Origin: Niabella agricola
GTDB lineage: Bacteria; Bacteroidota; Bacteroidia; Chitinophagales; Chitinophagaceae
Length of the DNA stretch: 64,000 nt
NCBI RefSeq assembly: GCF_021538615.1
Contig: NZ_JAJHIZ010000003.1
Span: 2,046,001-2,110,000 of the forward strand
Direction: 5' to 3'
Shown here: one piece after another, positions 550 through 60,245 of the stretch
Layout of the letters: every line of letters starts with the position of its first letter
Numbering within the stretch: position 1 is the stretch's first letter
The notes under the pieces: model-generated
Databases searched by the model: none
What the model saw: the letters and a program-made list of their open reading frames with translations, nothing else
Told to the model about the DNA's origin: nothing
Position numbers and translations under genes: made by a program

Positions 550-926
550 CCATTTGCGGCTATCATCTTAAACCGGCCCGCGCCTTCGGGCTTTCAATTT
601 GAAGATTTGAAAATGTGGGAATGATAACCGGTTGCCGCCGCGAAAACGCTAAGGTATCTGCCATTAAATCTCATACGCCCTTTAATAGACCGGTATCAAA
701 TTTATTTTTATCTTCTGGCCGGGCAGTGAGGAATAACATCAACGTCTTCTGTTTCCGTTGCGGTCTTTACGGGTACGTACGCCCTTCGCGGTTAAAATTT
801 TAAACGCAGGGAGCGCCAGGGTTACGCTGAGAACGCAAAGGAATTTTCATTGGTTCCTGTTTTCGTTGCGGCCCTTGCAAAGACGTTGCGCACATTGCGG
901 TTAAAAAAGCAAACTGGCTATTCATC
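550..926. other. Non-coding gap with repeat words and a quasi-palindrome
   Basis: No credible gene. A short hairpin GCCCG-cgcctt-CGGGC followed by TTT (576-594) could be a weak terminator for the upstream gene. At 597-635 the word CAATTTGAAGATTTGAAAATG appears in sense after the stop, in one-base-broken form (AATTTGAAGATTTGAAAATG); this is the terminal word of the dispersed repeat described elsewhere. From about 750 to 905 there are two related blocks ending CGCGGTTAAAA and TGCGGTTAAAA. Between them CGCGGTTAAAA faces TTTTAAACGC, making an imperfect inverted repeat of the GCGTCTTTGCGG kind. Confidence 0.5.
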
Positions 927-1784
927 TTAATTCTGAATTTTACTAAAGAAATCAGCGGGCCTTAACCGGATGCCGAAATTATAGGGTGTATGATCCAGTC
1001 CGCGTTTGTACATGCTCTTGAATGCATAGGATCCATATAATGTAACCACACCCAGGGTAAGATCTCCCACATAAGACAGCTTCCAGGGATCAAGATCAAA
1101 ATTATCTTTTGCCTTCAGTTTTCCTTCGTCGGAAGTAATGGTCTTATTCCGGGCCGCATATAAATACCCCACGCTTACACCGGCGCTCAGCTCAAAAGGA
1201 TACAACCGGTCCGGTGTAAAGTTGAAGTTCAACATCAGGGGGATGGTAATGTAATCTGCAGCCAGCTTATTTTTCCGGTAACTCCGGCCCGGCGTTTCAT
1301 CTATGGAAACCACCGGAGGGTTCACAATATCCGTTGCCGGGCGGGGATTAAACCGGACAGGGTTTTTAAACCGGTAATTGTTCAGTTCCAGTCCCAGCCC
1401 ATATTTCAGATTCAAAAAATGATGGATCAGGTTATACCGTTGGGTAACGATCCAGACATTCACATTCCTCGATTTGAAATACTTTGTAGCAAACCACTGC
1501 TCATTGCTCCCCGGGGCATAGGCCTGTGCTGCCACATCCGTATAATGGGTACCGTCCACAAAATTCGACATGCCAATATCGACCATTCCCCACTCGGTAA
1601 CCACATTCTTCAGACTTCTTTTCGTATTGATACTTTTTAAAAATCCCTTCCTCGGTTCCCGCTCCAGAGGTTTATTATCCCGGATGATGGTTACGCCGTT
1701 TATTACCAGGGTGTCCGGCTTATCCTGGGCTCCTGCAACGGCGGCCCAGGCAATCAGACAAGTTAGCAGTAATCTTCGTTTCAT
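927..1784 (-). CDS. Outer-membrane beta-barrel protein, paralogue of the preceding gene
   Basis: A signal peptide (MKRRLLLTCLIAWAAVAGAQ) marks the start at 1784; the frame reaches seven codons further upstream but that extension would hide the signal. The mature 260-odd residues alternate polar and aromatic residues in barrel-like strands (WKLSYVGDLTLGVVTLYGSY). It shares long stretches with the upstream neighbour: NYRFKNPVRFNPRPATD, DETPGRSYRKNKLAADY and SVGYLYAARNK. It is the last gene of the sigma / anti-sigma / barrel operon, so it is probably a target of that ECF sigma factor (inference). Ligand unknown; a porin-like or structural role in the outer membrane is the most that can be said. 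Confidence 0.7.
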   Translation of the reverse strand: MKRRLLLTCLIAWAAVAGAQDKPDTLVINGVTIIRDNKPLEREPRKGFLKSINTKRSLKNVVTEWGMVDIGMSNFVDGTHYTDVAAQAYAPGSNEQWFATKYFKSRNVNVWIVTQRYNLIHHFLNLKYGLGLELNNYRFKNPVRFNPRPATDIVNPPVVSIDETPGRSYRKNKLAADYITIPLMLNFNFTPDRLYPFELSAGVSVGYLYAARNKTITSDEGKLKAKDNFDLDPWKLSYVGDLTLGVVTLYGSYAFKSMYKRGLDHTPYNFGIRLRPADFFSKIQN

Positions 1785-1874
1785 CGTCATACAAATCAGT
1801 GGCATTACAAATCAGTTTGCTGCAAAATCTGGTTTATTCAATGATTAAAGATAGGAAAGAACTTGTTTATAAAA

Positions 1875-2753
1875 TTATAAACCTACCCGTACTCCAACCG
1901 TATACGGTGTAAGGTCTAAACCGCGCTTAAACATGCTCTTGGTTGCAAATGATCCGTATACCCCCAGGTAACCCAGGTTCACTTCTCCAACATAGGAGAT
2001 CTTCCAGGGGTTTAAGCTGAAATCGTCTTTAAATTTGTGTTTGCCTTCATCCGAGTTGATGTATTTGTTCCGTGCCGAGTAAAGGTACCCGGCACTGATA
2101 CCGGCGCTGAATCCAAATTCCTTGCTGGCTTTTACGCGCACATTCTTACGGTTTACTTCAACCACCTTACGGTTCTTTGTAGGGAATGATACATTCAACA
2201 TTACCGGCAAGGTAAGATAATCAGCAGCAAGTTTGGTTTTCTTATAGGTACGTCCTGGGGTTTCATCCAGGTACACGACTGCAGGAATAGCCGCATCGGT
2301 GGCTGGACGCGGATTCAGGCGCACGGGGTTCTTAAACCGGTAATTATTCAGCTCTAGCCCCAAAGAGTACTTCAGGTTCAGTACATGGCGCACCATATTA
2401 ATCTTTTGCGACAAGAACCAGATGTTTACATTCACCGATTTTCCGCTTCTCAGGTCCAGCCAGGAACCGGTAGCGCCCGGCGCAAAGGCCTGCGTGGCCG
2501 CATCCGTATATACGGTATTATCTACAAAATTTGCAAAGCCCAGGTCAATGCTGAACCAGCTGGTGATTACATTTTTTGCCCGGCTGGCTTTTACCCAGGG
2601 CTGCCCGTTTCCGGTGATGATTACAGAATCCTTTTTTTTACTCGTAATAACCTTCACATTAATTTCGGTAGTATCGGCCCCCTTCTGATCCTGCGCCTGC
2701 AGGCAAAGCGGTGCCATTAAAATTGTGTATACAATTAGTCGTATCGTTTTCAT
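1875..2753 (-). CDS. Outer-membrane beta-barrel protein
   Basis: 292 aa with a signal peptide (MKTIRLIVYTILMAPLCLQAQ). The barrel part contains LELNNYRFKNPVRLNPRP, DETPGRTYKKTKLAADY and AGISAGYLYSARNK, almost the same as in the next gene downstream, so the two arose by tandem duplication. This copy has an extra basic insertion (NRKVVEVNRKNVRVKASKE, around residues 205-225) that the other lacks, probably an extended loop or turn. The start lies 5 bases after the anti-sigma stop, which indicates co-transcription. Function of the barrel is unknown. Confidence 0.72.
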   Translation of the reverse strand: MKTIRLIVYTILMAPLCLQAQDQKGADTTEINVKVITSKKKDSVIITGNGQPWVKASRAKNVITSWFSIDLGFANFVDNTVYTDAATQAFAPGATGSWLDLRSGKSVNVNIWFLSQKINMVRHVLNLKYSLGLELNNYRFKNPVRLNPRPATDAAIPAVVYLDETPGRTYKKTKLAADYLTLPVMLNVSFPTKNRKVVEVNRKNVRVKASKEFGFSAGISAGYLYSARNKYINSDEGKHKFKDDFSLNPWKISYVGEVNLGYLGVYGSFATKSMFKRGLDLTPYTVGVRVGL

Positions 2754-2758
2754 TTTTT

Positions 2759-3778: not shown

Positions 3779-3780
3779 GG

Positions 3781-4266: not shown

Positions 4267-4590
4267 AGATCCAGTAGCAGGGTTGTAGTTATTATCTTTT
4301 TTGAACCGGTTTATATGTAATACGGGCGATGCGGTTAAAAAGTTACAGGAAAAATTTTTTTTTGAGAAATTTGAGAATGTGGAAATGTGAGCATATGAGA
4401 ATGCCCGGGAATGGCGAGTAGCGAAACGCATCAAGCAGGGATCCAACCTCAACCGTTAAACAAATAAGCTTGGCTTTTAGCCTTCAGCCCTCAGCATCGA
4501 GCATCCAGCATTTAAAATCTAACCCTTTCCATCAAGTGTAAAACTGAACCCTGACGGTTCAACCTTGAACTTGAAACCAACCCTCCAGGC
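4267..4590. repeat. Gap holding an inverted copy of the modular intergenic repeat
   Basis: No gene. Bases about 4367-4525 read on the minus strand match about 34022-34256 read on the plus strand, module by module: a GATGCTGAGGGCTG-type block, TTTGTTTAACG, then a core. The core (4402-4448 against 34107-34153) agrees at 43 of 47 positions by my count. The 34 kb copy carries an extra segment of roughly 65 bases after the core before both resume with CTCATATGCTCACATTTCC. No terminator for rodA is visible here. Confidence 0.7.
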
Positions 4591-9799: not shown

Positions 9800-9852
9800 C
9801 GGGTGTTACATTTAACGCCTGATTTTCCAGGCCGAACAAAACGGTTAAAGAA

Positions 9853-10878: not shown

Positions 10879-10916
10879 TCCTTAATTAAATAAATTTCTT
10901 GTGTTTTCGTGAGGAG

Positions 10917-11115: not shown

Positions 11116-11133
11116 TAACCTCAAAAATAAATT

Positions 11134-12096: not shown

Positions 12097-12116
12097 TCGT
12101 TGTAAATATATTTTTG

Positions 12117-12152
12117 AAAAGAGCTGCCAGTAAATCTGGCGGCTCTTTTTTT
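12117..12152 (+). terminator. Intrinsic terminator of the transketolase gene
   Basis: AAAAGAGCTGCC, a 9-base loop, then GGCGGCTCTTTTTTT. The stem is 8 bp with one G-T pair and is followed by seven T residues, 20 bases after the stop codon. The preceding A-run makes it potentially bidirectional. Confidence 0.85.
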
Positions 12153-12345
12153 GGAATTTGAAAATGTGAATGCGGAAATGAAGACGCCGTTCCGGCTCGA
12201 TAATCGCATTTCTAAAAAGATCATAAGATCATGGAATTGCGCATCTCACCCCCAAGGAGAAACAACATCCAACATGACACATTAAACGTTAAACCTTGAG
12301 CCTTTAACGGCATAACTGAAACCTTTAAACTTTTTCCTATCTTAC
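12153..12345 (-). repeat. Copy of the modular intergenic repeat
   Basis: On the minus strand the order is a GTTTAAAGGTTTCAG / GGTTTAACGTTTAATG leader, a G-rich block (GGGGGTGAGATGCGC), GATCTTATGATC, the core CGATTATCGAG-CCGGAACGGC, and the tail TCTTCATTTCC. From GATCT to TCTTCATT it aligns with 40468-40522 with one indel and about 46 identities in 55 by eye. The tail end touches the T-run of the transketolase terminator, so in the gene's sense it reads GAATTTGAAAATGTGAATG. Confidence 0.65.
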
Positions 12346-22367: not shown

Positions 22368-22597
22368 ATATTTCCTGTTTGACTTTTAGAATTGCCTCCG
22401 GGCGCTCCGAACATTGCAAAGAACGAAGCGATCCTTCAGTGTTTAAACAGCGTTGAAGATACTATTTTTCCGCTATAACATTTGCAATTCTCAAGTATTT
22501 AATCATTTCTTTATACGATGTCTAATGATCCGGCACAATCCTTACATATTCTCAAACAAGCTCCTGTATTACCGGTTTCGGTTCTAAAGCAGAGAGA

Positions 22598-22642
22598 CAT
22601 AAAAAAGCCTCGTCCGGGTACACCGTACGAGGCTTTTTTATG
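22598..22642 (-). terminator. Terminator of the ribosomal alpha operon
   Basis: A perfect 16-bp inverted repeat, CATAAAAAAGCCTCGT and its complement ACGAGGCTTTTTTATG, with a 13-base loop, 14 bases after the rplQ stop. A- and T-runs on the two sides make it bidirectional in form. The ppc promoter region follows directly. Confidence 0.9.
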
Positions 22643-22655
22643 TTGTAAAGAAGGA

Positions 22656-23210
22656 TTATGCTTCTTTGTTCTCGTCTTTTGCTTCTGCTGCAGGAGCTTC
22701 TTCAGCAGCTGCAGGAGCAACCGCTTCTTTTACTTCCTCAACAGGTGCTGCTTCCGCAACAGCAGTAGCTTCTTCTTTTTTCTTTCCGCTACCGCTGCGA
22801 CGACGGGTACGTTTACCAGCAGCTTTCTCATCAGATCCTTTACCGTAAACTTCGTTAAAGTCTACCAGCTCGATCATTGCTTTTTCAGCAGCATCACCAG
22901 GACGGATCCCTAATTTAATGATGCGGGTATAACCACCGGGGCGGCCGCCAACCTTTGCTGCAACGGCATCGAACAGTTCTTTAACCGCTTCTTTGTCCTG
23001 TAAGTGGCTGAACACAATACGACGCTGATGTGTGGTATTTTCTTTGCTTTTGGTAATCAGGGGTTCTACATATACCCTTAACGCCTTTGCTTTTGCAACA
23101 GTAGTTACAATACGCTTGTGCTCGATCAGCTGGCAGGAAAGATTACGCAACAAGGCATCTCTGTGTGCTTTGGTACGGCTTAAATTTTTGATTTTGTCTC
23201 CGTGACGCAT
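22656..23210 (-). CDS. rplQ: Large ribosomal subunit protein L17 (bL17) with long acidic tail
   Basis: The start is [20 protein letters not shown] at 23210; the frame continues 14 codons upstream through repeat-like sequence and is not used. Residues 1-115 are canonical L17 ([39 protein letters not shown]). The next 65 or so form a basic linker ([14 protein letters not shown]) and an Ala/Glu/Val-rich tail, which E. coli L17 lacks but which is common in this phylum. Last gene of the alpha operon, before a strong terminator. Confidence 0.96.
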
Positions 23211-23318
23211 GACATTTAATTTGAGATTTGAGATCTGAGATTTCAGACCCACAAATCGGTTAAAAAAATTCGGTTACACCGTGTCAAGGAAATTGTAACC
23301 TACTGTACTAATGTGGAA

Positions 23319-23376
23319 ATGTGTGAATGAGAGAATGTGGAAATTTTCATACTTCCACATTTTCACATCTTCACAT
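23319..23376. repeat. Quasi-palindrome in the rpoA-rplQ gap
   Basis: Left arm 23319-23342 and right arm 23353-23376 are inverted with 19 of 24 positions matching, around a 10-base loop. The innermost nine bases (AATGTGGAA/TTCCACATT) are perfect. Vocabulary: ATGTGGAAATG words. The right arm ends two bases from the rpoA stop. Confidence 0.7.
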
Positions 23377-23378
23377 AA

Positions 23379-24380
23379 TTAATAATCGTCTTTATCGATT
23401 CCCAGCTTCTGAAGGTCCATACCAAAGCCCAGACCTCTTTCGATGAGCACCTGCTCAATTTCAGAAAGGGATTTCTGACCAAAGTTCCGGAACTTCATCA
23501 GGTCTTCCTGCTCGTACTGCACCAGCTCGCTCAAAGAATTGATCTTGGCCGCTTTTAAGCAGTTGAACGCCCGTACAGAAAGATCCAGGTCCTCCAGCGG
23601 GGTCTTCAGTACCTTACGCAGTTGCAGGGTCTGCTCATCTACCATATCCTCTTTCTTCTCTTCCTTATTATCAAACGTGATGTTTTCATCCGTAATGATC
23701 ATCAGGTGCTGAATTAAGATCCGGCTGGCCTGTTTTACCGCTTCTTCCGGATGAATGGTACCATCGGTATTTACTTCCATTAACAGCTTTTCATAATCCG
23801 TACGTTGTTCCACACGGGTATTTTCAATGCTGTATTTTACATTTTTAATGGGCGTAAAGATAGAGTCGATAGCAATATAACCTACCGGTGCATCTTTTAC
23901 CTTGTTATCTTCAGCAGGTACATAACCACGGCCTTTACCTATGGTCAGTTCAATATCCAGCTTGGAAGAAGAATCCATAGTGCAGATCAGCAGATCCGGG
24001 TTCATGATCTGGAAGGACTGTGTTCCATCAGCGATCATTCCCGCAGTGAACTCTGTCTGATTTTTTACAGAAATGGAAATTTTTTCATTGGCCACTTCAT
24101 GATCAACGATTCTTTTGAAGCGGACCTGTTTCAAATTCAGGATGATTTCAACCACGTCTTCGCTAATTCCCTTCATGGTAGCAAATTCATGATCTACACC
24201 CTCTATTTTAATGCCTACAATCGCATATCCCTCAAGAGAGTTCAATAAAACACGACGCAGTGCGTTACCAATGGTAACACCATACCCCGGCTCTAGTGGA
24301 CGAAACTCAAACTGAGCTTCGAAATCTGAAGCCTTTTGCAAAATGATTTTGTCAGGCTGGTGGAAATTTAAAATTGCCAT
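23379..24380 (-). CDS. rpoA: RNA polymerase alpha subunit
   Basis: 333 aa. The N-terminal dimerisation and assembly domain (1 to about 235) has FEFRPLEPGYGVTIGNALRR (first 20 of the motif) and the MKGISEDVVEIILNLK helix; after a charged linker (NKEEKKEDMVDE) comes the C-terminal domain with DLDLSVRAFNCLKAAKI and FGQKSLSEIEQVL, the DNA- and activator-binding helix-hairpin-helix. Sits between rpsD and rplQ in the standard order. Length and motifs are entirely normal. Confidence 0.98.
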   Translation of the reverse strand: MAILNFHQPDKIILQKASDFEAQFEFRPLEPGYGVTIGNALRRVLLNSLEGYAIVGIKIEGVDHEFATMKGISEDVVEIILNLKQVRFKRIVDHEVANEKISISVKNQTEFTAGMIADGTQSFQIMNPDLLICTMDSSSKLDIELTIGKGRGYVPAEDNKVKDAPVGYIAIDSIFTPIKNVKYSIENTRVEQRTDYEKLLMEVNTDGTIHPEEAVKQASRILIQHLMIITDENITFDNKEEKKEDMVDEQTLQLRKVLKTPLEDLDLSVRAFNCLKAAKINSLSELVQYEQEDLMKFRNFGQKSLSEIEQVLIERGLGFGMDLQKLGIDKDDY

Positions 24381-24399
24381 TTTTATCCTTTATTAAGTG

Positions 24400-24464
24400 A
24401 ATGGTGACTAAATGAATGGTGAATAGTGAATGTGAGCCGTCGGTTCACGATCCGCTATTGACTA
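24400..24464. repeat. Quasi-palindrome in the rpsD-rpoA gap
   Basis: Plus strand ATGAATGGTGAATAGTGAATG... faces ...CTATTGACTATCCACT. Inner arms GTGAGCCG/CGGTTCAC match at 7 of 8 positions; outer arms match at 11 of 14, separated on one side by an 8-base bulge. Vocabulary: GAATAGTGAATGGTGAA words, unlike the other gaps in this operon. Confidence 0.6.
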
Positions 24465-24474
24465 TCCACTAAAA

Positions 24475-25080
24475 TTACTTACTGTACAATTCAACAATCA
24501 GCTGCTCCTTAATGTTCTCAGGAACACTTTCCCTTTCGGGATAGGTGATGAAAGTACCTTTGATTTCAGTTTCATTGAAATCGATCCAGCCAAATTTTGG
24601 ATTTTTGGGGCGGATCACGCTTGTAATAGAAGAACGGTTCTTGCTGCTTTCTTTCAGGGTGATGATATCACCGGCTTTCAACTGATAAGAAGGGATGTTT
24701 ACCACTTCACCATTTACTTCAATGTGCTTGTGGCTTACCAGCTGGCGGGCAGCAGGGCGGCTGGGTGCAATACCCATGCGGAATACCGTGTTGTCTAAAC
24801 GCGCTTCAAGTAATTTAATAAGGTTTTCACCGGTAATACCTTTCCGACGGTTGGCTTCCTCAAATGTTTTGCGGAATTGTTTCTCCAACACACCGTAAGT
24901 GTATTTTGCTTTTTGTTTTTCGCGCAGCTGCAATGCATATTCCCCTAAGGTTTTACGCTTGCGCTTTTCGCCATGCATACCGGGAGGGTTGCTGTTTTTA
25001 CCCAACCATTTACCATTACCTAAAATAGGCTCTCCGAAAATACGGGAGATCTTGGTCTTCGGACCATTGTAACGTGCCAT
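24475..25080 (-). CDS. rpsD: Small ribosomal subunit protein S4 (uS4)
   Basis: 201 aa. Starts MARYNGPKTKISRIFGEPI, has the KQKAKYTYGVLEKQFRKTF segment, and the S4 RNA-binding domain at about 92-155 (LLEARLDNTVFRMGIAPSR, AARQLVSHKHIEVNGEVVNI). It lacks the N-terminal zinc cysteines and so is a C-minus S4. Primary binder of 16S rRNA; in other bacteria it represses its own operon, but no repressor-binding leader can be identified here. Followed by rpoA in the usual order. Confidence 0.97.
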   Translation of the reverse strand: MARYNGPKTKISRIFGEPILGNGKWLGKNSNPPGMHGEKRKRKTLGEYALQLREKQKAKYTYGVLEKQFRKTFEEANRRKGITGENLIKLLEARLDNTVFRMGIAPSRPAARQLVSHKHIEVNGEVVNIPSYQLKAGDIITLKESSKNRSSITSVIRPKNPKFGWIDFNETEIKGTFITYPERESVPENIKEQLIVELYSK

Positions 25081-25201
25081 AATTATACTTTCATTTAAGC
25101 TTTTTTAGAAACCGGTACAGCAATCAGTAAAAAGCTTTGGAAAAAATTAATTGTGTACCCTTTATTAAAAATGAAAAGCCAATTGGCTCAACTATATATA
25201 T

Positions 25202-25248
25202 GATGTACAATGTATGACGTACGAACTTCGTACATCATACATCGCACA
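25202..25248. repeat. Tight quasi-palindrome in the rpsK-rpsD gap
   Basis: Left arm 25202-25225 (GATGTACAATGTATGACGTA...) is inverted in 25226-25249. The centre GTACGAA-c-TTCGTAC is perfect, and the outer part has about three mismatches. Vocabulary: GTACAATGTATGACG words. With almost no loop it would extrude or fold as a long hairpin in the mRNA. Confidence 0.7.
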
Positions 25249-25253
25249 TAAAA

Positions 25254-25655
25254 TTATACTCTTCTCTTTTTGGGAGGACGGCATCCGTTGTGCGGCAAAG
25301 GAGTAACGTCTTTGATCATTACTACTTCGATGCCAGACTGGGAAAGTGAGCGGATTGCTCCTTCACGGCCGGCGCCGGGGCCTTTTACATATACATCTAC
25401 TCTTTTCAAACCTGCATCCAATGCTACTTTTGCAGCATCTGCAGAAGCCATCTGAGCAGCATAGGGTGTGTTCTTTTTAGAACCACGGAAACCCATTTTA
25501 CCAGCACTGCTCCAGGAAATAACCTGGCCGGATTTGTTGGTTAAGCTGATGATAATGTTGTTGAATGTTGCAGAAATGTGCGCATCTCCATACGCATCCA
25601 CTTTTACAATCCTTTTTTTTGCAGCGGCTTTTGCGCTGTTTTGTGATTTTGCCAT
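25254..25655 (-). CDS. rpsK: Small ribosomal subunit protein S11 (uS11)
   Basis: 133 aa. The core is canonical: [24 protein letters not shown] [52 protein letters not shown] and the conserved end [18 protein letters not shown]. The N-terminus is Lys/Ala-rich ([18 protein letters not shown]) and a little longer than in E. coli. Part of the platform of the 30S subunit. Gap of 173 bases to rpsD and 186 to rpsM, both unusually long for this operon and filled with inverted-repeat sequence. Confidence 0.97.
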
Positions 25656-25776
25656 TGTACTAAAAGGTGATCTTTAAAAAATAAAACGCTTTGCGGAGCA
25701 AAACGCCCAGTCAATCCTAGTCCTGCACCGGGGTGTCCGGATTTGATCTGGTAGTAACAGGTGCATATAAAAAAGC

Positions 25777-25836
25777 AGTCAGCTATCAGATATCAGCAAT
25801 CAGCAACTGCTGACAACCAACAACTAAAAGCTGACT
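25777..25836. repeat. Quasi-palindrome in the rpsM-rpsK gap
   Basis: Outer arms AGTCAGCT (25777-25784) and AGCTGACT (25829-25836) are perfect. The middle is only loosely paired, and a separate tight hairpin TCAGCA-ac-TGCTGA sits at 25800-25813. Vocabulary: ATCAGCAATCAGC words, which also occur near 8340-8390, 4480-4510 and 34040. Confidence 0.6.
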
Positions 25837-25841
25837 CCTAA

Positions 25842-26222
25842 TTATTTCTTAGCGGCCTTCTTCTTACCGGCAACCGTCTTACGTTTACCTTTACGGGTAC
25901 GGCTGTTGGTTTTTGTACGCTGACCACGCACCGGAAGTCCTTTCCTGTGACGCAGACCACGGTAGCAGGCGATATCCAGCAGGCGCTTAATGTTCATTTG
26001 CACCTCGCTTCTCAGCTGACCTTCTACTTTCAGTTCTTCAGTAATGGTAGAACGGATCGCATTCAGATCTTCATCGTTCCACTCGTTTACTTTTTTGCTG
26101 CGGTCAATGCTATTCTTGTCAAGAATATATTTAGCTGTAGAAGGGCCGATACCATAAATATAGGTAAGGCCAATTTCGCCCCTTTTGTTCTTTGGTAAGT
26201 CTACACCGGCAATACGTGCCAT
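25842..26222 (-). CDS. rpsM: Small ribosomal subunit protein S13 (uS13)
   Basis: 126 aa. Starts [20 protein letters not shown], contains the helix-two-turn-helix [14 protein letters not shown], and the conserved [20 protein letters not shown] near residues 88-110. The C-terminal tail is very basic ([15 protein letters not shown]) and contacts tRNA and 16S rRNA in the 30S head. Follows rpmJ by 81 bases. Confidence 0.97.
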
Positions 26223-26303
26223 ATTTTTTCGAATTTAAATTTCAAGAAACAAATAACTTCCGTCAATTGGTTCTTGTATTTTGATTTTTGTTTTTTAAAT
26301 AGT

Positions 26304-26420
26304 TTATCCTTGTCTTTGTTTAAAACGGGGATTCTTTTTGTTAATTACATAAAGCTTCCCTTTGCGACGTACAATTTTGCAGTCGGCGCTACGCTTTTTA
26401 ATGGATGCTCTTACTCTCAT
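26304..26420 (-). CDS. rpmJ: Large ribosomal subunit protein L36 (bL36), zinc-free form
   Basis: 38 codons from ATG at 26420 to TAA at 26304-26306. The translation begins [20 protein letters not shown] and ends [12 protein letters not shown], the unmistakable L36 pattern. Of the four usual zinc ligands only Cys14 remains: position 11 is Ser, 27 is Asn and 33 is Phe, so no zinc ribbon can form. This is the C-minus version. It lies 27 bases after infA and before rpsM, the normal order. Confidence 0.95.
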
Positions 26421-26447
26421 CTTTTTTAATTTAAGGTTTTTAGCCAA

Positions 26448-26666
26448 TTATTTATAGCGGAAATTTATCCTGCCCCTGGTTAAATCATAAGGAGACATTT
26501 CCAATCCCACTTTATCTCCGGGCAAAATACGAATGTAGTGCATACGCATCTTACCGGAAATTGTTGCCAAAACCTCATGGCCGTTTTCCAGCTTTACCCT
26601 GAACATCGCATTAGACAAGGCTTCCAGGATGACTCCGTCTTGTTTTATTAAAGGTTGTTTTGACAT
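26448..26666 (-). CDS. infA: Translation initiation factor IF-1
   Basis: 72 aa, the exact family length. An S1-like OB fold: [58 protein letters not shown], ending FRYK. It binds the 30S A site during initiation. First gene of the operon here: a promoter-like -7 box lies 17 bases upstream and a terminator of the previous gene just beyond. The secY and map genes that commonly precede infA are not present. Confidence 0.97.
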
Positions 26667-26682
26667 ACAAATTTTAGGGCTG

Positions 26683-26690
26683 CAAAGATA
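26683..26690 (-). promoter_or_regulatory. -7 element of the infA-rplQ operon
   Basis: The minus strand reads TATCTTTG, a full TAnnTTTG match. The start would be near 26677, leaving a leader of about 10 bases to the infA ATG at 26666. The -33 region is only T-rich. Confidence 0.6.
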
Positions 26691-26704
26691 GGTAATATTT
26701 TATA

Positions 26705-26744
26705 ATAAAAAAGCCTTATTCTGGCTAAATTTCAGAATAAAGCT
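26705..26744 (-). terminator. Terminator of the gene upstream of infA
   Basis: The minus strand reads AGCTTTATTCTG, 9-base loop AAATTTAGC, CAGAATAAGGCT, then TTTTTT. The stem is 12 bp with one G-T pair. It lies 38 bases after the stop of the 131-aa gene and just before the infA promoter, so the two units are transcribed separately. Confidence 0.85.
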
Positions 26745-26781
26745 GTATTGTTCAGACCTTAGACGGTCAAAAATGCAGAGG

Positions 26782-27177
26782 TTAGTGTACCAGCGGAACT
26801 TTAGTCATTTGTAAATGAATGTTTTGCAGCTCATTCACGGTAATCGGACGGTCAAAAAGACGGCGGTCTTCCCGGTACCACACTTCGCTTCTTGAAAAGT
26901 TGTCTGCAGCAGGCACCAGCACCCGGAAGGGCCCTTTCCCGTACTTTGTACCATTGCCTGCAGGATTGTCCATTTTTTCAAATCCCAGCCGCATCAGCTG
27001 TGCCTCATCCAGCGGAATGCCCTGTACCCGGTCCAGCGGATACCAGAATTCCTGAATGCCGTTATCTACACAAACCTCATGCTCCTCATTACTCACCCTT
27101 ACAACAGAACCTTCACGCAACACTCCATCATCCGTAACAATTACCCAGTCACCCGGTTTTAACTCATTTAATTTCAT
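26782..27177 (-). CDS. Small conserved protein of a family common in Bacteroidota and their phages
   Basis: 131 aa, soluble. It opens LNELKPGDWVIVTDDGVLRE, has GIPLDEAQLMRLGFEK in the middle (about 53-68) and closes ITVNELQNIHLQMTK. That arrangement (LRxGNWV..., PIPLTxExLxxxGF, HELQNLYFxLT) is one I recognise from many short hypothetical proteins in Bacteroidota genomes and prophages; none has a firm function to my knowledge. A small SH3-like beta fold at the N-terminus is possible. Single gene with its own terminator. Confidence 0.65.
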   Translation of the reverse strand: MKLNELKPGDWVIVTDDGVLREGSVVRVSNEEHEVCVDNGIQEFWYPLDRVQGIPLDEAQLMRLGFEKMDNPAGNGTKYGKGPFRVLVPAADNFSRSEVWYREDRRLFDRPITVNELQNIHLQMTKVPLVH

Positions 27178-27581
27178 ACGAATAAAATTTATGCAAACAA
27201 ACGATCCTATTTACTTTCCTAAGATAGAAAAAATAATGACAACTGCCATAAGTTCCGCTATTTTTTCTCCATGCGAACATGACTGCCAAATTTTTAATGA
27301 AATCGGTATGAACGACAGGGTCAGCAGCTGCCAATTCTTCAGCTGGAACGGGAACCATCTAATTTTTTTTAAAACAATTCCTCCAAAGATCCTCTTATTC
27401 AATCTTCTATACGTATTTCCCCAAAGCCTTTGCACGCCTGCCTTTGCGACCAAAAAACACACGTTTGTTACAAATAAGATCCGATTATAATGTTAATAAA
27501 TCACTAACGATTCTTTAAATTTTTGTTATCGCCTGGCATGCTTCTTGTCGATGGGGCGGCAAAATGTAAAATTTCGATCAA
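27178..27581. other. 404-base non-coding gap
   Basis: Between two divergent genes. AT-rich (visibly more so than the flanking genes), with no repeat words of the kinds seen in other gaps. Short open frames on both strands (for example 27211-27462 minus) have no recognisable content. Near the right end, TTTTTG and 17 bases later TTCTTG (about 27530-27552) loosely resemble a promoter for the outer-membrane protein gene. Confidence 0.4.
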
Positions 27582-33973: not shown

Positions 33974-34256
33974 CGTTTCATGTTTAAAGTTTCAGGCTGC
34001 CCGCCGTGGCGGGTGGGGTTCATTGTTAGATATTAGATACTGAATGCCCGATGCTGAATGCTAAAAGCTGAGGGCAAAAAGCTGGGCTTCTTTGTTTAAC
34101 GTTTGAAGCTGGATCCCTGCTTGATGTGTTTCGCTACTCGCCATTGCCGGGCAATATTGACCAAAGGAAAGATTATGAAGCAGTAATGTTATCTTCATTT
34201 TCACATTTCCGCATGCTCATATGCTCACATTTCCACATGCTCAAATGATAATCCCT
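33974..34256 (+). repeat. Longest copy of the modular intergenic repeat
   Basis: Order: GTTTCACGTTTCATGTTTAAAG leader (in part), perfect hairpin CCCGCC-gt-GGCGGG (34000-34013), GATACTGAATG/GATGCTGAATG words, TTTGTTTAACGTTTGAAG, the core at 34107-34153, a segment containing GAAGCAGTAATG, then tail TCTTCATTTTCACATTTCC and a second CTCACATTTCCACATG. The part from about 34022 matches 4367-4525 on the other strand. Lies between divergent genes, unlike most copies. Confidence 0.7.
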
Positions 34257-36194: not shown

Positions 36195-36306
36195 CGGTGG
36201 GAGGCTGTTGGATACCAGATGTCAGACATTAGTGCCTATTGTCTATAGAATACCGATCGGCGGAGGTTTACGAAGCAGGAATGGCATCTTCATTTTCAAA
36301 TTCTCA
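36195..36306 (+). repeat. Copy of the modular intergenic repeat
   Basis: GGTTTAACGTTTAACGG begins in the rpiA end region (36181 on), then GATACCAGATG, GTCTATAGAATACCGATCGG, the GAAGCAGGAATGGC core and tail ATCTTCATTTTCAAATTCTC. Closely resembles 40610-40708. Its tail end lies 11 bases from the stop of the minus-strand DUF5686 gene, reading GAGAATTTGAAAATGAAGA in that gene's sense. Confidence 0.65.
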
Positions 36307-36316
36307 AACCGCCTTC

Positions 36317-39600: not shown

Positions 39601-39609
39601 TCCGGGAAA

Positions 39610-39780
39610 AAGGTTAACGTTTTAAAGTTTGGATTCGTTTGAGGCTTGATGTAAGACGCCAGATACCAGATGTTTATCGTCTAAGGTGTTGTCTGACGTC
39701 TACAGCATATCGATCGAAGTTCACAGAGCAGGAACAGGATCTTCATTCCACATTTTCATCCCGCCAAAGCGGGACAAATT
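39610..39780 (+). repeat. Copy of the modular intergenic repeat with terminal hairpin
   Basis: GGTTAACGTTTTAAAG leader, GAGGCTTGATGTAAGACGCC, AGATACCAGATG, GTCTGACGTCTACAGCATATCG, GATCGAAGTTCAC, GAGCAGGAACAGGATCTTCATT, then a perfect 6-bp hairpin TCCCGC-caaa-GCGGGA (39759-39774) and CAAATT. It ends at the base before the sigma gene's stop codon, so the hairpin is the first thing in that gene's 3' untranslated region. Confidence 0.65.
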
Positions 39781-40281: not shown

Positions 40282-40779
40282 AACCCGCCTTTTTGAAATT
40301 TGTCTAAATTAAAGCTTTACCCGGTAAGCGCAAAGCCGCTCGTCCAATTATAACAAAAAGTTTACCGTTTGAACAGGGCTGCCATTTTGCCGGTGGGAGG
40401 ATTTCAGGTTTAAGGTTCAAGGTTTCACGTTGGGTTCCGTCTGCTGGCGCGGGGCATTCAATTTCCGGATCTCATAATCTTTTACAGAAGTACGATTATC
40501 GAGTAGGAACGGCATCTTCATTCTTACACTCTGCATTTCCATCCTGCCAAAACGGGACAAATTCCCGTTCCTCACTGGTTATTTTACATTCCCGAAGGGG
40601 CGTATGCCTGATGGAAGACGTTGATACCAGATGGCTATAGTCTAACGTCTGTACAATACCGATCGGAGGAAGTTCACGGAGCAGGAACGGCTCTTCACTT
40701 TTACATTTAATATTTTTTATTCAATATTTTACATTTCCCCAAGGAGAACGATATCTGCGGCTCACCGGCGCCTTCATGG
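40282..40779 (+). repeat. 498-base gap made largely of two repeat copies
   Basis: Copy one spans about 40398-40564: GGTTTAAGGTTCAAGG leader, GCGCGGGGCATTCAATTTCC, GATCTCATAATC, core CGATTATCGAGTAGGAACGG, tail CATCTTCATTC, degenerate hairpin TCCTGCCAAAACGGGA. Copy two spans about 40610-40720: GATACCAGATG, TCTAACGTCTGTACAATACC, GATCGGAGGAAGTTCACGG, AGCAGGAACGGCTCTTCAC, TTTTACATTT. Copy one is closest to 12153-12345, copy two to 36195-36306, so they are two subtypes side by side. No gene here. Confidence 0.65.
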
Positions 40780-50170: not shown

Positions 50171-50215
50171 GAAAATAACGAATTAGATGTTGGACACTTA
50201 TTCTTCTCAATATTC

Positions 50216-51415: not shown

Positions 51416-51420
51416 TTTTT

Positions 51421-52491: not shown

Positions 52492-52515
52492 TGGTGCTGA
52501 ACTATTAGATCTATA

Positions 52516-53502: not shown

Positions 53503-53573
53503 TATTTTGACTACCCCAGCAATACTCTTCTGACAATAAGCTCATTAGTCTAGGCATTGGAAACGCAAATTCT

Positions 53574-55070
53574 CTAGCTTCCCTTCTTTTCTTTTATAAA
53601 ACGTTGTATCATATTTAGCAACCCGATCTTTTTGTCAATTTGGAAAAAGGAATATGATGCAGATACAACAATTAATATTCCCCCAACCCCGTAGGCCCAT
53701 CGTTCCGCCAAAAATTTCACCGCTAAAAAGCATAATATCCCAATGTTTAATTGTATTAAGAAGACTAGCCAAAATCTTTTCTCAAAAAAAAACAAATAAA
53801 ATCGCCTAGTCCAATATGAAACCTGAAAAAAACATATGATATATCCTACCAGAAAAGAGATTCCTAAACCTTCCAACCCCCAAAGCCAATACCCAGTAAT
53901 ATTACATAGTAACAAGGTTCCTATTGATATCATCTCACTCCAAAAAAAAAGCTTTGCATTACCCGATGCTAAAAAAATAAAACCAACAGCCCAAGTCACC
54001 GCTTTGAAGTACATGCCCAGAGCCGCCCATTGAACCATGCCATTTATTGGCGCAAATTGATTCGTATACAGTATTATTATTCCCCAGTGAATAAACACCA
54101 AAAAGATACACAAAATAGGCGCCAATATTAAGACTGCCAATTCAGCTTGTTGATTAACCAAATTGCGTAACTGATCTCTTTTGGAAGCAATGCCCGCTAA
54201 ACGTGGATAATAGTCTGTCGACATCGCCGTAAATATCATGCCCACGTATGTGCCAATAATCATAAATCCGGCATTATAAAAGCCGACATCTTCTATAGTG
54301 CCCATTTTACCTATAAAAATGCGAACAAGATATGATTCCCCCAACCCGACAAAGCTACTTAAGCTTAAAAAAAAACCGATTTTTAGCATCTCCTTTCCCT
54401 CTCCCCAAATCTCCTTTCTGCTTACCCAAACTTTGTCAATTTGCATTTTACGTGAAAAGTACCAAGCTATAAACATCATGGCCCCGGCTGTTATAACAAC
54501 TGCTGGTACTATACCATTTATACGAAACCAATAATATAAAGGCAATGAAACGAACAAGCTAATTGCGGCCCCAAGTACATTCGCTTTTGCCAAATACTTC
54601 AATTGCCGTAAACCTTGCAGTAACACATTTTGACCAACAGTAAGCTGATTAAACAACAGGGAGACAGAAAGAATATAAAAAGCCGTTGTATAGTTGAATG
54701 TTCCAAATGTCGCTTTGCTCAACAATGGAGCAAAAATAATAGCCATTAAAGCTCCCAAAACGCCGGTAATCCAAACCAATTTTCTAACTATTGCAACAGT
54801 CTTTAGCAACCTGTTAGTATCTCCATTTTCATTAGCCTCAGCTACAGCTCTAACTGCACTACTACCCAATCCGAACCCTGAAATACCTCCTATAAGATTG
54901 AGGGCTGTAGTAAACAAACCAAAAACACCCATGCCTGCAGGACCCAGTAGTATCGCAATCATTTTGGAACGGAGTACATAAATAAAGATATTGACTAATT
55001 GTACCCCCCCAAACAACGAAGTAGCCTTAAACAATTGACGATAGGAGGACTGCTGATGCTGATTCTTCAA
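53574..55070 (-). CDS. Wzx-type O-antigen/capsule flippase
   Basis: 498 aa with about twelve to fourteen membrane helices. The N-terminus KATSLFGGVQLVNIFIYVLR and the MIAILLGPAGMGVFGLFTTA stretch are those of MOP-superfamily O-antigen translocases (WzxE-like), followed by YLVRIFIGKMGTIEDVGFYN. It moves the lipid-linked repeat unit across the inner membrane, so export goes by the Wzx/Wzy route with the Wzc kinase at 62.3 kb. Ends in a basic tail (IKEKKGS). AT-rich. Confidence 0.9.
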   Translation of the reverse strand: MKNQHQQSSYRQLFKATSLFGGVQLVNIFIYVLRSKMIAILLGPAGMGVFGLFTTALNLIGGISGFGLGSSAVRAVAEANENGDTNRLLKTVAIVRKLVWITGVLGALMAIIFAPLLSKATFGTFNYTTAFYILSVSLLFNQLTVGQNVLLQGLRQLKYLAKANVLGAAISLFVSLPLYYWFRINGIVPAVVITAGAMMFIAWYFSRKMQIDKVWVSRKEIWGEGKEMLKIGFFLSLSSFVGLGESYLVRIFIGKMGTIEDVGFYNAGFMIIGTYVGMIFTAMSTDYYPRLAGIASKRDQLRNLVNQQAELAVLILAPILCIFLVFIHWGIIILYTNQFAPINGMVQWAALGMYFKAVTWAVGFIFLASGNAKLFFWSEMISIGTLLLCNITGYWLWGLEGLGISFLVGYIICFFQVSYWTRRFYLFFFEKRFWLVFLIQLNIGILCFLAVKFLAERWAYGVGGILIVVSASYSFFQIDKKIGLLNMIQRFIKEKKGS

Positions 55071-55080
55071 TATTTAATTT

Positions 55081-57666: not shown

Positions 57667-58063
57667 TTTTCAGCCGTTTATATTCCACGAAATCCCTGAT
57701 ATAATCAGATGCATCATAAGCTCTATCAGATACAATTAACGCAAGAGAATTCGTAGAGAAATTCTCCATATGTCTCCAATACATCTGAGGAACGTATAAA
57801 CCGTAATAGCTTCTATTCAAAGAAAACACCTGCTCCTTTTCACCATCGTGCAACACCACATCAAAGCTACCGGATAAGGCAACAATAAACTCCTGCTGCA
57901 CCTTAAAGGCATGTCCTCCCCTGGTTTCACCGCCAGGCACATCGTAAATCCAATAAGTACGAGCAATGCTAAAAGGCAATTGACGGGGGTGTTCAAAAAA
58001 AGAGAGATTCCCTCGTTTATCAAGTACTTTAGGCAGCTGTATTATATCTGGTTTCAAACTCAT
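57659..58063 (-). CDS. FdtA/QdtA-like cupin with altered active site
   Basis: 134 aa, paralogue of the next gene: FSIARTYWIYDVPGGETRGG, FKVQQEFIVALSGSFDVVLH and [15 protein letters not shown] align throughout. Where the paralogue has GAHAHK this one has GGHAFK (His51 kept, second histidine replaced by Phe53). It could be a ketoisomerase of different stereochemistry, a partner of the other copy in a hetero-oligomer, or inactive. Translationally coupled to its neighbours by overlaps of 4 and 8 bases. Confidence 0.75.
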   Translation of the reverse strand: MSLKPDIIQLPKVLDKRGNLSFFEHPRQLPFSIARTYWIYDVPGGETRGGHAFKVQQEFIVALSGSFDVVLHDGEKEQVFSLNRSYYGLYVPQMYWRHMENFSTNSLALIVSDRAYDASDYIRDFVEYKRLKND

Positions 58064-59058
58064 ATGGTTTCCGTTTTATAAATATTCTGAACGATATCAA
58101 CCACCTTTAACCCTCCGCTGGCTTCTGCTGTAATACCGGCCCCCGATTTCAGTACGTTTCTGATTTTTTCTAAAACAAAATAATGATTGGCCCGTCCCGT
58201 ATCACCATCTTCCATATCCGGGAACCTTCTTTCGGAAAGTGCGTAGTCTTTGATGTGACAAAACGCTACTTTATCCATATACTGCCCTCCCACTTTTACC
58301 GACCCGTTTTCCGCAATCACCGTGACACTGCTCTCCAGGTTTTTATCCCATACCGCTGTGGTATAACTCAAACAGCCAAGACCTCCGTTTACAAAATCAA
58401 ATTGAACTGTTCCTGTATCTTCTATTTCAATGGCATTGCCATGATTGAAATTGGCCAGTTTTGCCTGAATATTGGTCACATCTCCAAAACACCACAACAG
58501 CAGGTCAATAAAATGACTGAACTGCGTAAATAATACGCCGCCATCCAGCTCTTTGGTGCCATGCCAGCTTCCTTTTTTATAATAGCGGTCATCCCGGTTC
58601 CAGAAACAATTGACCTGAACTAAAAAAATCTTCCCCAGCACACCGCTATCCACCACCTCCTTTAACCAGGCACTTACAGGGCTGAACCGGTTCTGCATCA
58701 TTACAAATACCTGTCGCTGCACATCAGCAGCCTTTGCGAGGATCGCCTCGGCATCGGCCTTGTTCAGCGCCATCGGCTTTTCAATCAATACGTGCTTCCC
58801 GGCATCTAAACATTTTAATGCCTGTTGCGCGTGTAGCCCGTTGGGTGTAGCAATTACAACCACATCGGTTGCTGCAGCAGTGAGGGATTCCAAAAAGTGA
58901 TCCAGATCCTTATAAAAAGGAATCCCTGGTAATTCCTGCTGCGGGTGCATGTCCACAACTGCCATCAGTTCGCAATCAGGGTGTTCCCCAATCACACTTG
59001 CATGCCGTTTTCCCATATGTCCATACCCAATAACCGAAAATCTTGTTTTCCCACTCAC
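58060..59058 (-). CDS. Gfo/Idh/MocA sugar oxidoreductase (WbpB/WlbA-like)
   Basis: 332 aa. Rossmann motif VIGYGHMGKRH, then ATPNGLHAQQAL, the catalytic-lysine segment VLIEKPMALNKADAEAI, NRFSPVSAWLKEVV, NCFWNRDDRYYKKGSWHGT and DGGVLFTQFSHFIDLLLW. The last stretches are those of the UDP-N-acetylglucosaminuronate 3-dehydrogenase group (WbpB/WlbA), and the adjoining gene encodes a WbpD/WlbB-like acetyltransferase. It would oxidise C-3 so that an amino group can be added. Other Gfo/Idh substrates remain possible. Confidence 0.8.
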   Translation of the reverse strand: MSGKTRFSVIGYGHMGKRHASVIGEHPDCELMAVVDMHPQQELPGIPFYKDLDHFLESLTAAATDVVVIATPNGLHAQQALKCLDAGKHVLIEKPMALNKADAEAILAKAADVQRQVFVMMQNRFSPVSAWLKEVVDSGVLGKIFLVQVNCFWNRDDRYYKKGSWHGTKELDGGVLFTQFSHFIDLLLWCFGDVTNIQAKLANFNHGNAIEIEDTGTVQFDFVNGGLGCLSYTTAVWDKNLESSVTVIAENGSVKVGGQYMDKVAFCHIKDYALSERRFPDMEDGDTGRANHYFVLEKIRNVLKSGAGITAEASGGLKVVDIVQNIYKTETI

Positions 59059-59062
59059 CTTC

Positions 59063-59644
59063 TTAAGACTTTTTATATACTGCTCCGCTTCTCAGTTCGT
59101 ATGTTACACCACTTTCCGGGCAAATCGCTATTCCTGTAGCATCAAATTGCAGCTTCTGCCCGTACTCACTCATCCAGCCCGTCTGGCGTGCCGGGTTTCC
59201 CACTACCAGAGCATAGGCCGGTACATCTTTAGTGACCACGGCGCCCGCACCAATAAAAGCATATGCACCGATTATATTTCCACAAACGACGGTTGCATTG
59301 GCGCCTATGGTTGCACCTTTCTTAACAAGCGTCTGCTTAAACTCATTTTTTCTGCTAATCGCGCTGCGCGGGTTAATTACATTTGTAAAAACCACACTGG
59401 GCCCCAGGAATACTTCATCCTCACAGATTACTCCTTCATAGATGGATACATTGTTCTGCACCCGCACGTGATTGCCAAGAAACACTTTGGAAGCGATCAT
59501 TACATTTTGACCAAGATTACAATGGTCTCCGATCGTGCATCCTGTCATAATATGCGAAAAGTGCCAGATCTTAGTACCTGCACCAATAACGCAACCTTCA
59601 TCGATAACAGCAGAAGGGTGTGCGAAGAAGTTTGGAGACATCAT
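59063..59644 (-). CDS. Hexapeptide N-acetyltransferase (WbpD/WlbB-like)
   Basis: 193 aa left-handed beta-helix enzyme: [80 protein letters not shown] and [20 protein letters not shown], then [17 protein letters not shown]. VFTNVxNPRS and GNPARxxGWMSxxG are typical of WbpD/WlbB, which acetylate the 3-amino group of UDP-GlcNAc3NA. A 4-base gap to the oxidoreductase gene links the two steps. The C-terminal Cys in [12 protein letters not shown] is an added short tail. Confidence 0.85.
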
Positions 59645-59692
59645 GCTATAAATACTAAGCTCTAAGTTTCAAATGTCGAATACTGGATCTGT

Positions 59693-60097
59693 CTAAACAG
59701 GGTACCGGTGCTCATCATTGGTAGTACCCACCGGGTGATCGGCCATCACCAGGATTTTTGAGCTGGGTTCCAATGCCTGTAAAGAAAAAATATGTCCCGG
59801 AGGTATATGCAACACATCCAGGGCCCCGGCTTTTAAAGTAAAAACAGCCGTATCCTTTTCATCCAGCTCCGGTTGCAGCCAGTCGCTAACAGGCTTAACT
59901 TTTACCTGGAACCCGCCGCTTACGACCGTGAACCACCGGTTTTCAATTTCATGCCCCATCCATCCCCGGATCAGCGAGGTATTATTATGTTCGATGGTAT
60001 AAATCCTTTTTACCGGGCTTGCATCAAAACCATTGTTAAACAGCAGCGAACCCCGTTGGTCTGTATGCTGTCCTCCCTGTAAAAGTTGTACGTTCAT
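59693..60097 (-). CDS. RmlC-like cupin, sugar epimerase family
   Basis: 134 aa single-domain cupin. DQRGSLLFNN and IRGWMGHEIENRWFTVVSGG correspond to the RmlC strands that carry the RGxH active-site pair, and ALDVLHIPPGHIFSLQAL to the later PPGxxHxF strand. True RmlC is about 180 aa, so this is a shorter relative. It lies directly after rfbA, where rmlC is expected. It may epimerise a nucleotide sugar or be a ketoisomerase relative; no assignment is secure. Confidence 0.65.
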   Translation of the reverse strand: MNVQLLQGGQHTDQRGSLLFNNGFDASPVKRIYTIEHNNTSLIRGWMGHEIENRWFTVVSGGFQVKVKPVSDWLQPELDEKDTAVFTLKAGALDVLHIPPGHIFSLQALEPSSKILVMADHPVGTTNDEHRYPV

Positions 60098-60245
60098 TGC
60101 GATTCAAATAATAAACAACAAATAACAAATTACAAAAGCCAAGAAACAAATATCAAGGTTCAAAAAAAATTAAGAATCCGGACCGGAGGCTGTGGCTGCA
60201 ATGACCATAACCGGCTCTTCATTTTCACATTTCCACATTTTCAAA
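60098..60245 (+). repeat. Gap with A-rich words and a repeat tail
   Basis: The first half is built of AACAAATAACAAATTACAAA words (60105-60160). The second half carries ATAACCGGCTCTTCATTTTC, ACATTTCCACATTTTCAAAT, the terminal module of the dispersed repeat. It runs to the base before the rfbA stop (60246), so in the rfbA sense the 3' untranslated region starts AATTTGAAAATGTGGAAATG. Confidence 0.65.

Follow-up and report, generated by a model that had tools for sequence, protein, structure and literature searches.

Degenerate tandem arrays of 7- and 8-nucleotide units at gene boundaries in Niabella agricola and related genomes

We analyzed a stretch of 64,000 nucleotides (nt) of the Niabella agricola genome (contig NZ_JAJHIZ010000003.1, positions 2,046,001 to 2,110,000; hereafter the window), in which a short repeat word recurs in the gaps between genes. 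The word belongs to octamer arrays that usually begin at the edge of a gene, with the closest placement immediately behind a stop codon or just beyond its terminator, and that read away from the gene. Some of these arrays are inverted pairs forming hairpins behind stop codons, mainly in operon gaps. More often the arrays stand single, with a dispersed modular repeat coming after about three in ten of them. We tentatively read the arrays as non-coding DNA prone to turnover, gained and kept at the 3′ boundaries of genes, a subset of which may act as spacer hairpins in mRNA.

Results

The repeat word and its profile

The repeat word is the commonest 8-letter form of loose 7- or 8-letter tandem repeats in intergenic gaps. 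A single exact copy is present in the window. At up to three mismatches there are 6 window matches, some overlapping (0.02 expected), and 114 matches, some overlapping, in the whole host genome (G000, 6.26 Mb, in which the window is C3:2046001-2110000), against 1 match for the reversed pattern. The word is part of a degenerate array of period 8: training an octamer profile on 864 kb led to the consensus AATKTGRA, with several of the 8 positions variable, and the sense strand of the arrays is composed of 28% G and only 1.4% C. Arrays were accepted at a profile score of at least 24, a threshold at which the 864 kb gave 25 real and 2 reversed-sequence matches.

Placement was analyzed in 1.61 Mb of the 6.26 Mb, comprising the window, 40 evenly spaced stretches and 40 hit-centred stretches. 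The latter were picked with the 20-mer: 100 of its 114 places were grouped into 53 clusters, of which 40 were used and 13 left out, some of them overlapping stretches already sampled. Genes were called with a home-made program, which gives approximate starts and misses some genes (for example 53574-55070). This sample contained 85 arrays, 78 of them intergenic.

Arrays start at gene edges and read away from the gene

Thirty-one of the 78 intergenic arrays start in sense within 15 nt behind a stop codon, compared with 6.4 ± 2.2 for random placement (maximum 17 in 2000 draws). The enrichment persists when the window is left out (28/70, 5.8 expected) and in the evenly spaced stretches alone (5/14, 0.9 expected). 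Within the same distance only one array faces a stop (6.5 expected) and one faces a start (4.0 expected), while 6 lie behind a start (3.9 expected). The preliminary description, made from the window alone, had placed the word in sense behind stop codons; across about a quarter of the genome both the enrichment and the strand bias are strong, and the opposite outcome, copies with neither at gene ends, was looked for in that quarter and not observed.

A description in terms of stops only is incomplete. The feature behind the array is a stop in 46 cases and a start in 32, the starts being mostly farther off, and 68 of the 78 arrays point away from the nearer gene. Array density is 0.87 per kb in convergent gaps, 0.27-0.33 in codirectional gaps and 0.18 in divergent gaps. 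A fixed octamer phase relative to the stop codon was found only in part, partly because the array itself supplies the stop, which lies inside the array in at least 4 copies.

In stretches of five other genomes, 7 of 19 arrays lie behind a stop (0.8 expected). All seven are in G005, G009 and G010, whose stretches are syntenic with the window, so that stop enrichment and strand bias recur in three sister species. The G025 stretches hold 2 intergenic arrays, neither behind a stop, and those of G007 hold none.

Copies in the window

Eight arrays with a score of at least 24 lie in gaps of the window, five of them in sense behind a stop. These arrays, with the related flanks and one weaker match, are:

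596-623, plus strand: single octamer array, 46 nt behind the stop at 549, score 39.1
4366-4403, plus strand: octamer array, an exception, with the called start of an extracytoplasmic function (ECF) sigma gene 99 nt behind it, score 48.7
4402-4522, plus strand: 121-nt flank, 83% identical to 34033-34153 on the opposite strand
12149-12170, plus strand: octamer array of the transketolase-subunit gene, 52 nt after the stop and abutting a terminator-like T-run, score 26.5
23310-23346, plus strand: inverted octamer array, 3′ arm of the rpoA-rplQ hairpin, score 45.4
23341-23376, minus strand: octamer array, 5′ hairpin arm, 2 nt behind the rpoA stop, score 45.4
34033-34153, minus strand: flank in common with 4402-4522, 83% identity
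34196-34246, minus strand: octamer array in a divergent gap, an exception, with an argD-family aminotransferase gene starting 24 nt away, score 59.0
36291-36308, minus strand: octamer array, 8 nt behind the stop of a gene named DUF5686, score 26.3
39746-39758, minus strand: weak 13-nt octamer match, 22 nt behind an ECF sigma stop, score 20.4
60220-60247, minus strand: octamer array with the exact word, sharing the AA of the rfbA TAA stop

The five loci in sense behind stops (first gene, transketolase, rpoA, the DUF5686-named gene and rfbA) had all been pointed out in the preliminary description. It had also given the DUF5686 name, for which the gene has no NCBIfam match. The array at 596-623 is preceded by a terminator-like GC hairpin and a T-run. 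A further copy had been described as following a hairpin immediately after the ECF sigma stop. The GC hairpin, CCCGCCAAAGCGGG, does come first, but the match behind it is short, falls below the threshold and does not adjoin the stop. The exceptions reported at 4.4 and 34.2 kb are real, and both carry the 121-nt flank. The inverted partner of the rpoA copy had been missed.

Arrays differ at orthologous stops among relatives

Within the syntenic block, a sense array lies within 110 nt of 5/56 stops in G000, 3/46 in G005, 2/47 in G009 and 2/41 in G010. Positions in common are those behind rpoA (three genomes), the DUF5686-named gene (two) and the first gene (two), and one stop carries an array in G005 and G010 but none in G000. 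Behind the DUF5686-named gene an array is also present in G005, with none over the threshold in G009 and G010; by eye, the array is common to G000 and G005 and the sequence downstream of it differs. The gap behind rfbA measures 148 nt in G000, where it begins with a perfect word, and 1 nt in G005 and G009, while G010 and G014 show other repeat-like filling by eye. The gene that follows (59693-60097) is 78-79% identical in G005, G009 and G010. Behind the transketolase gene a terminator-like hairpin is seen by eye in most relatives shown, and no octamer array reaches the threshold in G005, G009 or G010; G005 has the same dispersed core there, preceded by another head module. Orthologous stops thus differ in their arrays, through either gain or loss.

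Inverted pairs form hairpins in ribosomal-operon gaps

We analyzed four gaps (rpsM-rpsK, rpsK-rpsD, rpsD-rpoA and rpoA-rplQ) in the window and in 80 related loci having both genes. The five rpoA proteins closest to that of the window, all from Niabella, are 98-100% identical to it. The octamer hairpin between rpoA and rplQ has a fold z of -3.9 in the window (0/200 shuffles as stable), and three further window gaps carry hairpins built of heptamers:

24400-24477, minus strand: period-7 hairpin of GTGAATA type behind the rpsD stop, z -3.9, 1/200 shuffles as stable
25190-25256, minus strand: period-7 hairpin of ATGTACG type behind the rpsK stop, z -7.8, not alignable with the hairpins of related loci L111-L114
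25765-25841, minus strand: period-7 hairpin of TCAGCTA type behind the rpsM stop, followed by a T-run, z -6.5

Segments of period 7 and period 8 are frequent in the first 100 nt of all four gaps: 20 + 6 for rpsM-rpsK (74 gaps), 33 + 12 for rpsK-rpsD (74 gaps), 34 + 1 for rpsD-rpoA (76 gaps) and 20 + 25 for rpoA-rplQ (79 gaps). Shuffled sequences gave at most 1 segment and other periods 0-4. The remainder of the gap contained none behind rpsM (60 gaps), 1 behind rpsK (60) and 2 behind rpsD (13). In the fold test, applied to up to 24 of the 81 loci, z was below -2 for rpsM in 23/24, for rpsD in 13/23 and for rpoA in 15/24 loci folded. Stems of at least 14 bp were present in 102 of the 117 gaps having a periodic segment. 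Their arms match better than unit-permuted arms (median z -1.85; below -2 in 47/102), meaning that in about half of these stems the arms are mirrored beyond their common word. The G-rich arm is 5′ in 80 and 3′ in 13 of the 102 stems, a difference that is not significant for rpsM alone (13 versus 6), and non-periodic stems lean the same way (63 versus 26 of 99). Only 4 of the 102 periodic stems are followed by at least 6 T in 8 nt; as a class they are therefore not intrinsic terminators.

Identities were computed for pairs among the window and L111-L115, with the boundary of the leader set by motifs that we chose. Between rpsK and rpsD, the hairpin of the window and those of four relatives are 0.32-0.41 identical, as are shuffled sequences (0.33-0.42), beside leaders that are 0.97-0.99 identical. 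Behind rpsM, TCAGCTA-type heptamers are found in the window, L112 and L113, and GTTGACA-type heptamers in L111 and L114. More generally, among the first 140 codirectional gaps of at least 170 nt in G000, taken in file order and compared with single-letter shuffles, z falls below -3 for 15% in the 80 nt that follow the stop, as against 4% ahead of the start and 1% in mid-gap.

The gap parts adjoining the next gene in rpoA-rplQ and rpsM-rpsK (23211-23303 and 25656-25765, minus strand) look well conserved across related loci, for example in GTAGGTTACAATTTCCTTGACACGGTGTAACC and GCACC...GGTGC, and have no Rfam match above gathering. They are candidate ribosomal leaders for L17 and S11 in the family. 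Rfam gave 0 matches in the window, and within 22500-27300 all matches were sub-threshold. S4 leaders before rpsD have been predicted in Bacteroidia and Flavobacteria, according to the available part of PMC7247131.

Single arrays are unpaired and sometimes precede a dispersed repeat

The duplex of an array with its downstream sequence has a median z of 0.1 over 71 of the 78 arrays, the 7 others having less than 40 nt downstream. Values below -3 were obtained for 4/71, all of them from opposed arrays in L054, L078 and L070, and for 0 of 28 stop-adjacent arrays; three single copies of the window have z near 0. We therefore rejected the idea that a single array is one arm of a hairpin whose other arm is not an octamer array. 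Oppositely oriented arrays share a gap in only 5 cases.

The dispersed core, AAGATGCCGTTCCTGCTC, has 12 matches at up to 2 mismatches in the 864 kb (reversed, 0). By eye, a short frame is visible in it. Copies noted in the window are:

12181-12198, plus strand: AAGATGCCGTTCCTGCTC-like core, 2 mismatches
36273-36290, minus strand: core behind the 36291-36308 array, 2 mismatches (G000:C3:2082273-2082290)
39726-39743, minus strand: core match
40501-40518, minus strand: core match, first 40-kb copy
40679-40696, minus strand: core match, second 40-kb copy, preceded by the AATGTAAAATATTGAATAA... head module

The core is followed by variable modules and heptamer arrays. It also stands behind another head module, AATGTAAAATATTGAATAA...AATATTAAATGTAAAAGTG, by eye a heptamer array, which is behind a stop in 25 of 36 intergenic matches, at no more than 40 nt in 10 of them, and in no case has a facing stop that close. 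For the tail, AAACGGATCCAACCTGAAAC, 6/10 matches are followed by a facing stop within 40 nt. Head and tail differ, and the ends of the repeat are not sharp. As a general partner of the arrays the core was rejected on a recount (23/78). It is numerous only in G000 (36) and G005 (14), with at most 3 in other genomes, so the octamer array is more widespread than the dispersed repeat.

A wider class of period-7 and period-8 arrays

In the 864-kb sample, intergenic DNA shows an excess of self-matches at lags 7, 14 and 21, and coding DNA shows none at lags 7, 8 or 14. Scanning 787 gaps (60-600 nt) de novo, we detected 124 period-7 and 42 period-8 segments (shuffles 2.4 and 2.8). Period 14 accounted for a further 20 segments, period 15 for 10, period 6 for 9 and period 4 for 8, and no other period between 4 and 16 exceeded 5. 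AATKTGRA-type words are borne by 34 of the 42 octamer segments. Heptamer words in G000 include AAACCTT (24), AATCTCA (23), TTCTGAT (10), AATATAA (9), ATCAGCT (8) and others, and some heptamer arrays are near-perfect. Of 68 period-7 segments in codirectional gaps, 17 lie within 10 nt of a start (7.8 expected) and 15 within 10 nt of a stop (7.7 expected). In convergent and codirectional gaps, period-7 arrays have more G than C in the third of the gap beside the left gene and more C than G beside the right gene.

Genomes have their own word dialects: octamer and AATCTCA matches number 136 and 2 in G007, 12 and 127 in G015, and 160 and 0 in G019. Among five genomes sampled at 80 kb, period-7 segments number 29 in G025, 9 in G007, 2 in G034 and 0 in G004 and G008. 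Most of 119 genomes sampled in the class have the word at near-background level, and another five reach 22-41 matches. The AATKTGRA word is not in itself essential: other 7- and 8-nt words take similar positions. We regard it as the octamer version of a broader set of degenerate tandem arrays that occurs in Niabella and some relatives.

Two further arrays were noticed in the window. By eye, a second octamer word of ACGCAAAG type occurs at 760-900, near the first copy; the ACGCAAAG-type cluster makes up 4/42 period-8 segments in G000. A TTTGTTA-type heptamer array (60100-60165, minus strand) lies directly before the start of the gene 59693-60097.

Discussion

The turnover reading introduced above, which we hold with somewhat less than even confidence, would work as follows. 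Mobility, slippage or template switching would seed the arrays and copy them. They would survive chiefly in the interval from a stop or terminator to the promoter or leader that comes next, because insertion would do least harm there. In operons, a hairpin of any wording would be kept because it works as an mRNA spacer or a 3′-end stem-loop, separating the translated gene from the folded leader of the next gene. Single arrays would have no RNA role of their own. The reading draws on the placement and strand bias, the predominance of periods 7 and 8 (with their multiple 14), the crowding of periodic segments near the stop in ribosomal gaps, stem arms that match better than permuted ones, hairpins that differ beside conserved leaders, array presence or absence at orthologous stops, the dispersed repeat with its head behind stops and its tail facing them, and the rarity of T-rich tails after periodic stems. 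Of the two possibilities raised in the preliminary description, an insertion preference for gene ends fits more of the copies, given gain or loss at the same stops and the unpaired single arrays. A 3′ untranslated RNA element finds support for the inverted-pair subset, such as the one behind rpoA, and loses it for the single arrays, which lack pairing.

Several observations weigh against the turnover reading. No enzyme or target-site duplication was identified, and random insertion with survival alone does not explain the orientation of the arrays (31 behind a stop, 1 facing it). The dispersed core, at up to 4 mismatches, follows only 23/78 arrays (reversed core, 0) and only 6/31 stop-adjacent ones, leaving 25/31 without it; a mobile composite thus cannot account for most stop-adjacent copies. 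At a score of at least 20, 13 of 103 arrays fall within called genes. The remainder of the rpoA-rplQ gap also holds 16 periodic segments (37 gaps), so that confinement near the stop is weak there. A hairpin does not require periodicity, since stems (median 15 bp) occur in gaps lacking periodic segments as well. Finally, some hairpins are conserved: that of rpsM is 0.97 identical between the window and L112, and those of rpoA are 0.84-0.88 identical among L111, L112 and L115 (0.88 for L111-L115).

It is unlikely that all copies form a sense element of the 3′ untranslated region, in which the C-poor octamer strand would be read in RNA, bound by a protein or shaping 3′ ends. Such an element would fit the strong sense bias after stops, the 28% G and 1.4% C of the array strand, the 25/31 stop-adjacent arrays without the core, and the array common to G000 and G005 behind the DUF5686-named gene despite differing downstream sequence (by eye). 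It sits poorly with the 32/78 arrays that have a start behind them rather than a stop, with presence or absence at orthologous stops, with single arrays lacking downstream pairing (z near 0 at three window copies), and with the other words occupying similar places.

A purely neutral origin also seems to us rather improbable. Replication slippage in steps of 7-8 nt would build arrays where selection is weak, decay would lead to degeneracy, and hairpins would be by-products. The sharp period classes, the missing lag-7 and lag-8 excess in coding DNA and the several unrelated words speak for it, as does a survey of long simple repeats whose discussion took in a 7-nt class and polymerase slippage (Mrazek 2007, as cited in the available part of PMC4679880). 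Slippage does not predict the orientation bias, arms mirrored beyond unit order, the preference for G-rich 5′ arms (80 versus 13 in periodic, 63 versus 26 in non-periodic stems) or the recurrence of a single dispersed word at 85 arrays within 1.61 Mb.

We consider it very unlikely that arrays behind stops are polar barriers blocking antisense or convergent transcription before it enters the gene. With the sense strand nearly C-free, the antisense strand contains C and is nearly G-free, like a Rho loading site. This strand composition, the highest density in convergent gaps (0.87 versus 0.18 per kb in divergent ones) and the opposite skews of period-7 arrays near left and right genes are in line with the idea. 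However, near the stop this skew is absent from the 87/114 convergent gaps (60-600 nt) without an octamer array, and arrays that point away from either edge would give the same polarity.

Mobility of repetitive extragenic palindromic (REP)-like elements by a Y1 REP-associated tyrosine transposase (RAYT) is extremely unlikely and was rejected: across 59 genomes octamer counts rise with those of Y1 (rho 0.46, possibly through phylogeny), but within the genus they do not (rho 0.04, 17 genomes), G025 has 295 word matches with 3 weak or partial Y1 and G006 has 11 word matches with 11 Y1, and the consensus is the direct octamer AATKTGRA rather than a tagged palindrome, even if REPs too lie downstream of genes in convergent or codirectional gaps, often as inverted units (available part of PMC3733652). 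G006, of the same genus, has eight equal-scoring Y1 matches, which suggests a recently active IS200-type element. Loss of SbcD as a permissive factor was likewise rejected. A homologue over the family cut-off is found in 12/59 genomes (G000-G058), the host having only a sub-threshold match, and in 0/11 word-rich versus 12/48 other genomes (Fisher p 0.10); counting the heptamer word too, 3/15 rich genomes carry it (p 1.0).

The arrays can be compared with several known repeats. The short tandemly repeated repetitive (STRR) heptamers of cyanobacteria and other long simple repeats have a 7-nt unit, are intergenic and occur in many copies. The Niabella arrays share the tandem 7-nt unit, the intergenic location and the many loci (124 period-7 segments in 787 gaps; shuffles 2.4), but their units are not near-identical: they are degenerate, strand-polar, partly hairpin-forming and tied to stops. 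As a class the hairpins also lack the U-run of an intrinsic terminator (present in 4/102 stems), although the window rpsM hairpin has a T-run. Compared with miniature inverted-repeat transposable elements (MITEs), orthologous sites appear filled or empty, as in the rfbA gap (148 nt in G000 versus 1 nt in G005 and G009, by gain or loss); as regards terminal inverted repeats, gaps with opposed arrays are few (5), and the dispersed repeat has a differing head and tail.

Literature searches with the array strings and by topic, in which subscription literature was thinly covered, returned nothing on these words, and the available portions of PMC4679880, PMC3733652, PMC4596501 and PMC7247131 describe no degenerate 7/8-nt post-stop arrays or species-level swapping. 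As far as those portions go, TAACTGA heptamer direct repeats occur in Beggiatoaceae, Cyanobacteria and five Bacteroidetes (PMC4679880). Like the Niabella arrays, they are tandem repeats of a short unit, intergenic, patchy across species and near gene edges; unlike them, they consist of one exact heptamer, mostly just before start codons in the main host, whereas Niabella has several degenerate 7- and 8-mers, the octamer mostly just after stops and sometimes in inverted pairs, and one site can carry different words in different species. REP elements and bacterial interspersed mosaic elements (BIMEs) resemble the arrays in lying mainly 3′ of genes in convergent and codirectional gaps and in having paired inverted units able to form RNA hairpins (PMC3733652). 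In Niabella, the arms are 7/8-nt arrays without a tagged short palindrome or a within-genus RAYT link, and no GTAG (or CGTC) tag was seen by eye at the ends of the 78 listed copies. The BrickBuilt MITE of Porphyromonas gingivalis is likewise a modular non-coding Bacteroidota repeat with a tandem array, intergenic and with filled and empty sites; it differs in having a unit of 23 nt, placed between a leader and a tail, as well as terminal inverted repeats and duplications of 4 nt, neither of them established for Niabella (PMC4596501).

A more far-reaching explanation, to which we give a low probability, is that Chitinophagaceae share periodic hairpins behind stops, in which selection would keep position, fold and strand polarity (a G-rich 5′ arm) but not wording, and in which a trans-acting mechanism would rewrite 7-/8-nt arrays in place, in the dialect of each genome. 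If true, this would be an RNA architecture element free of sequence constraint with dedicated array-writing, for example by a polymerase iterating a short template or by hairpin-templated copying. Hairpins whose sequence is free while place and fold last would escape covariation searches, and RNA databases may for this reason lack a class of 3′-end or spacer structures. In essential ribosomal operons, close species differ next to leaders that are 97-99% identical, which makes selection for a post-stop hairpin, and also the process that builds 7-/8-nt arrays, directly testable.

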